Shown here: one piece after another, positions 40,370 through 42,128 of the stretch
Numbering within the stretch: position 1 is the stretch's first letter
Layout of the letters: every line of letters begins with the position of its first letter
NCBI GenBank assembly: GCA_913045315.1
Contig: CAJWQJ010000008.1
Span: forward strand, 19,942 to 83,941
Direction of reading: 5' to 3'
Length of the DNA stretch: 64,000 nucleotides
Source of the DNA: an uncultured Chloroflexota bacterium
GTDB lineage: Bacteria; Chloroflexota; Dehalococcoidia; Lucifugimonadales; UBA1127
Made by a program: the position numbers and the translations under genes
The notes under the pieces: generated by a model
Database searches by the model: none
The model's input: only the letters and a program-made list of their open reading frames with translations
Told to the model about the DNA's origin: nothing

Positions 40370-40407
40370 GTTACAAAAACGTAATCTTGCTGTAATCCTA
40401 AAGTAAA
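40370..40407 (+). promoter_or_regulatory. Four-copy, 11-bp-period half-site array upstream of the PII gene (GlnR-box-like)
   Basis: GTTAC-aaaaac-GTAAT-cttgct-GTAAT-cctaaa-GTAAA at 40370, 40381, 40392 and 40403. Confidence 0.6.
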
Positions 40408-40457
40408 ATGCATCATGTATATTTTTTTCGTATTCATAAGAAAGGAGAGTATCTTCA

Positions 40458-40811
40458 ATGATTAAAATAGAGGCAATAGTAAGGCCAGAAAAAGTTAATC
40501 AAGTCACTGCTGCACTTTTAGATGTTGGATGCGGTGGTTTCCATTACCAAAATGTAACTGGTCAAGGCCGACAACAAGGAGTGGAAGTATTCACTGGACG
40601 GGGAGGCCAAACAGCAACTCGGGCTGCTATGCCTAAAACAATTATCACAACTGTAGTCCAGGACGATCAACAAGCTACAGTAGTTGAAGCAATTATTGCA
40701 GCTGCCAAAACAGGAGATGAAGGAGCAATAGGTGACGGAAAAATATTCATCTCAAGTGTTAGCGATGCAATCAGAGTCCGAACAAATGAATCTGGTGAAG
40801 ATGTACTTTGA
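40458..40811 (+). CDS. glnB: Nitrogen regulatory protein PII
   Basis: MIKIEAIVRPEKVNQVTAALLDVGCGGF; IGDGKIFISSVSDAIRVRTNESGEDVL. Confidence 0.9.
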   Translation: MIKIEAIVRPEKVNQVTAALLDVGCGGFHYQNVTGQGRQQGVEVFTGRGGQTATRAAMPKTIITTVVQDDQQATVVEAIIAAAKTGDEGAIGDGKIFISSVSDAIRVRTNESGEDVL

Positions 40812-40833: not shown

Positions 40834-40871
40834 ATCACATAAACGTAACATTTACGTAATTCTCAAGAAAT
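40834..40871 (+). promoter_or_regulatory. Four-copy, 11-bp-period half-site array upstream of amtB (GlnR-box-like)
   Basis: ATCAC-ataaac-GTAAC-atttac-GTAAT-tctcaa-GAAAT at 40834, 40845, 40856 and 40867. Confidence 0.6.
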
Positions 40872-40922
40872 AATAAGAGAATAAACTGATTTACAGAAAT
40901 TTAAATACGAAAGGATCTTTTT

Positions 40923-42128
40923 ATGGATAGCGGAAATATGGCATGGATGCTTACCGCAAGTGCTTTGGTTCTTTTTATGACGCCAGGCCTTGCTTTTTTT
41001 TACGGAGGATTAGTTAGAGCAAAAAATATTGTTAATACCATCATGTTAAGCTTTATAGCGATGGGAGTTGTCAGTATTGTATGGGTGCTTTGGGGTTATA
41101 GCTTAGCATTTGGTCCCGGTGGCAGTTTTATAGGCAACTTTGATCATTTTGCACTTAATGGAATCGCAGCGGATGATGGAGAAACATTAATATTTGTAGT
41201 ATTTCAAATGATGTTCGCAATTATCACTCCTGCACTTATTACTGGTGCATTTGCTGAGAGATTTAAGTTTTCGACATATATGATTTTTCTAGTTCTTTGG
41301 GTAACTCTTGTATACGCACCTGTATGTCACTGGGTTTGGGCTGCTGATGGATGGTTATTTGAAAGAGGAGCCTTAGATTTCGCTGGTGGTACTGTTGTTC
41401 ATATCAATGCTGGTATAGCTGCTGTTGCTGCAGCTTGGTTAGTTGGAAAACGACGAAATATAGACCGGGGAGTTGAACCTCATAGCGTTCCATTTGTAGT
41501 TCTAGGTGCAGGCATGCTGTGGTTTGGTTGGTTCGGTTTTAATGCTGGATCTGGTTTAGCAGCTAATGCTTTAGCAGCAAACGCATTCCTCGTCACTAAC
41601 GTTGCAGCTGCCTCAGCCGCAGTTAGTTGGACAATAATTGCTCAAATAAAAACAGGTAAATTTAGTGCTGTAGGTGCAGCATCTGGTGCTGTTGCAGGAT
41701 TAGTAGCAATAACACCTGCTTCTGGATTTGTAGATGTTGTTGGTGCTCTTGCCATAGGTATTGGAGCAGGTGCAATTTGCTACGGAGCAGTTCTCATTCG
41801 AGCTAAAGTTAGCTTAGATGATGCATTGGAGGTATTCCCAGTTCACGGTATAGGTGGCATCTGGGGCGCCTTAGCTACTGGCATATTTGCCGTAGAAGCT
41901 ATTGGTGGTACTGCAGGTCTTCTTGAAGGAAACGGTGCACAAATGACAGAACAGTTCATAGCCGTTATAGCTACTCTCATCTATTCCTTTATTGTGAGTG
42001 TAATTATTCTAAAAGTACTTGATGTAATACCAGGATTGGGGTTACGTGTCTCTGAAAAAGACGAGGATGCTGGATTGGATATATCATTGCATGGTGAAAG
42101 AGGATACGTTCACGACGGTGCTGATTAG
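40923..42128 (+). CDS. amtB: Ammonium transporter
   Basis: MTPGLAFFYGGLVRAKNIVNTIM, DFAGGTVVHINAGIAA, WFGWFGFNAGS, VFPVHGIGGIWG. Confidence 0.96.
   Translation: MDSGNMAWMLTASALVLFMTPGLAFFYGGLVRAKNIVNTIMLSFIAMGVVSIVWVLWGYSLAFGPGGSFIGNFDHFALNGIAADDGETLIFVVFQMMFAIITPALITGAFAERFKFSTYMIFLVLWVTLVYAPVCHWVWAADGWLFERGALDFAGGTVVHINAGIAAVAAAWLVGKRRNIDRGVEPHSVPFVVLGAGMLWFGWFGFNAGSGLAANALAANAFLVTNVAAASAAVSWTIIAQIKTGKFSAVGAASGAVAGLVAITPASGFVDVVGALAIGIGAGAICYGAVLIRAKVSLDDALEVFPVHGIGGIWGALATGIFAVEAIGGTAGLLEGNGAQMTEQFIAVIATLIYSFIVSVIILKVLDVIPGLGLRVSEKDEDAGLDISLHGERGYVHDGAD

Follow-up and report, generated by a model that had tools for sequence, protein, structure and literature searches.

A four-site direct-repeat array upstream of glnB in a Chloroflexota genome as a predicted GlnR-type activator site

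We wanted to understand which regulator might read the four short direct repeats that lie upstream of glnB in a 64,000-nucleotide stretch of DNA (the window) from an uncultured Chloroflexota bacterium. A preliminary description, made from the letters of the window, had likened the repeats to a GlnR box and had proposed that a GlnR-like nitrogen regulator acts in this probable Chloroflexota genome. In actinomycetes, OmpR-type GlnR has been described as the master regulator for nitrogen, and this kind of GlnR is best known from soil actinobacteria. The assignment to Chloroflexota was sound, and the named relatives of the window genome are SAR202/Dehalococcoidia assemblies. The source assembly comprises 1.45 Mb in 32 contigs and is 89.4% complete.

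Arrays at the glnB, amtB, and glnA promoters

Direct reading of the half-site coordinates (Table 1) confirmed the four-copy array at 40370-40407, GTTAC-N6-GTAAT-N6-GTAAT-N6-GTAAA, with its strict 11-bp period. The array had been placed correctly upstream of glnB, and 50 bases separate its end from the glnB start. The TATATT element lies at the position reported, but the distance of 11 nt assigned to it mixed the two boundaries of the last half-site: the element begins 15 nt after the start of this half-site and 11 nt after its end. A second array is located upstream of amtB, and both window promoters keep the 15-nt offset exactly, with 34 nt (glnB) and 35 nt (amtB) between the -10 box and the start codon. 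The gene order here is glnB-amtB, with an array for each gene, whereas the relatives have the reverse order, amtB-glnB. Further, the glnA promoter, elsewhere in this genome, carries a third array, which is not followed by a -10 box at the offset of 15 nt. We also note that the T-loop of the PII protein, GVEVFTGRGGQTATRAAMPK, lacks a counterpart of Tyr51, the residue modified in classic PII proteins, and that the SAR202 relatives checked lack it too.

Table 1. Coordinates of the arrays, promoter elements, and genes in the window
Feature	Position	Strand	Basis
Half-site 1 (a1-like), GTTAC	40370..40374	+	Read directly from sequence
Half-site 2, GTAAT	40381..40385	+	Read directly from sequence
Half-site 3, GTAAT	40392..40396	+	Read directly from sequence
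Half-site 4, GTAAA	40403..40407	+	Read directly; -10 spacing as in relatives
-10 element of glnB, TATATT (TANNNT)	40418..40423	+	Offset as in 27/34 relatives
glnB, PII protein (PF00543)	40458..40811	+	Domain match
Second array, upstream of amtB, ATCAC-N6-GTAAC-N6-GTAAT-N6-GAAAT	40834..40871	+	Best window score with relatives' model
-10 element of amtB, TAAACT	40882..40887	+	15 nt after last half-site start
amtB, ammonium transporter (PF00909, TIGR00836)	40923..42128	+	Domain match

The three-site pattern GTWAY-N6-GTAAY-N6-GTAAW matched exactly at the glnB array only (in two registers) within the window, and at the glnB array (in the same two registers) and the glnA promoter only in the 1.45-Mb genome. 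Allowing one mismatch added only the amtB array and a site (C4:63188) flanked by rpoB and the gene for an Fe-S protein; the latter lacks a correctly spaced -10 box and is probably a chance match. When two mismatches were allowed, a scan of both strands of the whole genome gave 59 matches, compared with 98 for the backward control, and loose matches to the motif are uninformative because their counts are at or below background. A scoring model was built from the relatives only and spans four 11-bp units plus the -10 box. With this model, the amtB and glnB arrays, at 18.1 and 16.3 bits, were the first and second hits in the window; in Markov controls, the top score was equalled in 1 of 100, and the second-best score never exceeded 12.6 bits (0/100). 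In a scan of 355 kb of this genome with the weight matrix, the amtB, glnB, and glnA arrays were the top three. Under a half-site model from the relatives that omits the -10 box, each window array was, singly, only moderately strong; the half-sites of the window end more often in T or A, and those of the relatives end in C.

Conservation of the array and of its spacing to the -10 box

In the relatives, arrays of the form GTAAC-N6-GTCAC-N6-GCAAC-N6-GAAAC, or close variants of it, lie ~80-150 nt upstream of amtB in an amtB-glnB operon. These arrays are kept across the order at GC contents from 33 to 67%, and 42 of 54 non-redundant promoters scored >13 bits; the relatives share kinship, so that counts taken across them are not independent events. 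The array was not seen at amtB genes from outside Chloroflexota (L202-L240). Little was found directly upstream of glnB in the relatives, because the operon order there is amtB-glnB. The preliminary description had made its reading depend on conservation at orthologous promoters and on a frequency above background; the half-sites are indeed kept upstream of orthologous amtB-glnB operons, and the strict motif proved to be far above background. Specifically, a strict four-site pattern gave 17 matches in 197 genomes of the order, one per genome, and none with the reversed control; 15 of the 17 precede nitrogen genes: amtB in 10 cases, another glutamine synthetase gene in 3, and a second amt and glnA in 1 each. 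As a separate observation, other families of the order have the same four-site array in front of the gene for a glutamine synthetase of a second type (L256, L257, and L251).

The complete genome of Ca. Lucifugimonas marina has both the box and a GlnR-type regulator. This organism also has two amtB-glnB operons, with the array on one copy (L200) and not on the other (L186), and the genomes with the operon pairs L191/L164 and L175/L170 likewise carry it on one copy only, which suggests that the paralogues are differently regulated.

We aligned 34 strong arrays from the relatives. In 27 of them, the last half-site is followed by a TANNNT -10 box at an offset of exactly 15 nt from the half-site start, with none at the adjacent offsets, and the A and the T of TANNNT are each invariant (34/34). 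Activators of the OmpR/PhoB family replace the -35 box, and an 11-bp head-to-tail period is typical of their sites. By inference, the array may likewise substitute for a -35 box, and half-site 4, at about -27, would then stand in place of the -35 contact.

A GlnR-type protein in the relatives and the regulator in this genome

The proposed GlnR-like regulator was borne out in the relatives and not in the assembly itself. An orphan OmpR-type protein is encoded by 27 of 28 GlnB+ genomes, including all five family mates of the window genome (G001-G005), compared with 17 of 31 GlnB- genomes (Fisher p = 2e-4, uncorrected for relatedness). In a tree of 64 proteins with a limited reference set, it groups with GlnR of S. 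erythraea and M. tuberculosis (100/100), apart from RegX3, MtrA, PrrA, BaeR, RpaA, and the relatives' other OmpR proteins. The recognition helix GGTRTVDVHVRRLR(S/A)K is common to this protein and GlnR, and over the compared stretch the relatives read GGTRTVDVHVRRLRSK and actinobacterial GlnR GGTRTVDVHVRRLRAK, i.e. the same helix. The receiver is atypical: the acidic pair and the Thr of its pocket are lost, the Lys is mostly lost, and the Asp is kept in most members; no GlnR-type sequence retains the acidic pair, Thr, and Lys together. Among 17 members searched against Pfam, Response_reg matched one and GlnR_1st matched one, weakly. Loss of the receiver pocket has also been reported for GlnR (PMC10704036).

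The best sequence matches of the DNA-binding domain in the PDB were GlnR of Saccharopolyspora and Mycobacterium. Structure prediction followed by a PDB fold search returned a generic OmpR/PhoB fold, which does not discriminate within the family, with GlnR as the match of highest identity; no GlnR equivalog was among the best NCBIfam matches, and the protein cannot be named from NCBIfam. In six genomes, the gene neighbours a glnA-type gene (G023 and G032), a second glutamine synthetase gene (G015 and G029), or an amt gene (G030 and G067). Further, G007, G022, G038, and G056 encode no PF00486 protein other than the GlnR-type one, and all four carry arrays, that of G007 being weaker. Among 251 sampled Chloroflexota genomes searched at E <= 1e-60, the protein was found in this class only.

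Searches of the window genome's 89.4%-complete assembly, extended to E <= 10, returned no GlnR-type protein. The search for a GlnR/OmpR regulator that the preliminary description had suggested returned a single OmpR-type (PF00486) protein; it resembles RegX3 and has a canonical receiver. The recognition helix of this RegX3-like protein, TRTVDVHVRWLRKK, is similar to the GlnR helix, and its gene sits in an operon with genes for a PhoU-like protein, a PiT transporter, and a histidine kinase. TTCAC-N6-TTAAC occurs in the promoter region of this operon (L032:2300-2440) and may be a PHO-type box for the RegX3-like protein. In a synteny search for glnR, the LON-domain neighbour was unmatched in this genome, a distant trpE lies mid-contig, and the contig ends held no genes of the glnR region. 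Because the assembly has no GlnR-type protein, the identity of the regulator here is inferred; a gap in the assembly is likelier than loss from the organism because all family mates have GlnR and the arrays are preserved.

Proposed mechanism, alternatives, and comparison with known systems

Taking the sequence evidence together, we consider the glnB array to be, with good probability, the site from which an orphan nitrogen regulator of the OmpR family and the GlnR type activates transcription. Four protomers would line up head-to-tail along one face of the DNA, on the four 11-bp direct repeats, with the last half-site substituting for the -35 box at a fixed distance from the TANNNT -10 element. 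From this position of the last half-site and the fixed -10 spacing, we propose that the regulator, once bound, brings RNA polymerase to glnB and, via the second array of the same layout, to amtB; the third array would serve glnA. The regulator would presumably activate rather than repress these genes, the trigger is probably nitrogen limitation, and the GlnR orthologue itself may be encoded in the missing ~10% of the genome.

The alternative that bears on the regulator itself is that GlnR was lost in this lineage and that the RegX3-like protein now reads the arrays, which would tie the nitrogen genes to a phosphate-type two-component system. That this protein is the sole PF00486 protein of the assembly, and that its helix is close to that of GlnR, speak for such a replacement, as do reports that Streptomyces MtrA and PhoP act on GlnR targets (PMC10704036). 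However, all five family mates have the GlnR-type protein, RegX3-like orthologues coexist with GlnR in relatives, GlnR is the only OmpR-type protein in four array-bearing relatives, and the assembly is incomplete; we therefore regard the replacement as unlikely. Its corollary, a small marine genome from which GlnR has gone and in which a single OmpR-type regulator, the RegX3-like protein, governs the uptake of nitrogen as well as of phosphate, also seems to us improbable. A phosphate box of the RegX3/PhoP type also fits poorly with the targets, which are glnB, amtB, and glnA and not phosphate genes.

The remaining alternatives concern the array. The AT-rich GTAAT-type half-sites and the background frequency of looser motif versions could be accounted for by a chance run of repeats in AT-rich DNA, but the exact matches fall on nitrogen promoters, the arrays are kept in the order, and the -10 spacing is fixed in both window promoters, leaving chance a very improbable explanation. 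It is just as hard to credit a site for NtcA, a CRP-type protein, or another non-OmpR activator: the targets are nitrogen genes and GTA triplets are present, but the repeats are direct only, not the inverted GTA-N8-TAC palindrome of an NtcA box, their 11-bp head-to-tail period is typical of OmpR/PhoB sites, and a GlnR orthologue co-occurs in the relatives.

Under the GlnR-type reading, ammonium uptake appears to be controlled by a GlnR-type switch throughout a class of Chloroflexota that has been little studied and is mostly uncultured. A GlnR orthologue with a canonical box across this deep-ocean and sediment class would place the regulon in a second phylum, and it allows a nitrogen-limitation regulon to be predicted for an abundant marine lineage. 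A search of the open-access literature for GlnR together with Chloroflexi, Chloroflexota, SAR202, or Dehalococcoidia returned no relevant paper, and with this open-access coverage the novelty is provisional.

Among known systems, the MtrA sites of Streptomyces are similar in that MtrA binds GlnR boxes (as cited in PMC10704036), but the relatives' protein groups with GlnR and not with MtrA. The PHO-type 11-bp direct repeats of PhoB, PhoP, and RegX3 boxes share the OmpR-family geometry that replaces the -35 box; they differ from the arrays here, whose half-site sequence and targets are of the nitrogen type, and in this genome the gene for the RegX3-like protein belongs to a phosphate operon. The closest likeness is to GlnR of Streptomyces, Mycobacterium, Amycolatopsis, and Saccharopolyspora, for which the actinobacterial consensus is gTnAc-n6-GaAAc-n6-GtnAC-n6-GAAAc and for which the published activation complex, which includes RNA polymerase, has four sites bound head-to-tail by four GlnR protomers (PMC10704036). 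The arrays have the same tandem 11-bp gTnAC/GaAAC half-sites with 5 + 6 spacing, head-to-tail in an a-b-a-b order, as four units in phase in the window and in near-textbook form in the relatives. Likewise, the amtB-PII and glutamine synthetase promoters that actinobacterial GlnR targets are those at which the motif exceeds background, and the relatives' protein is, like GlnR, an orphan regulator with a degenerate receiver pocket and a near-identical recognition helix. What differs is the phylum, Chloroflexota, and, in this genome, the drift of the half-sites to GTAAT/GTAAA, the swapped order of glnB and amtB with separate arrays, and an assembly from which the regulator gene is absent.
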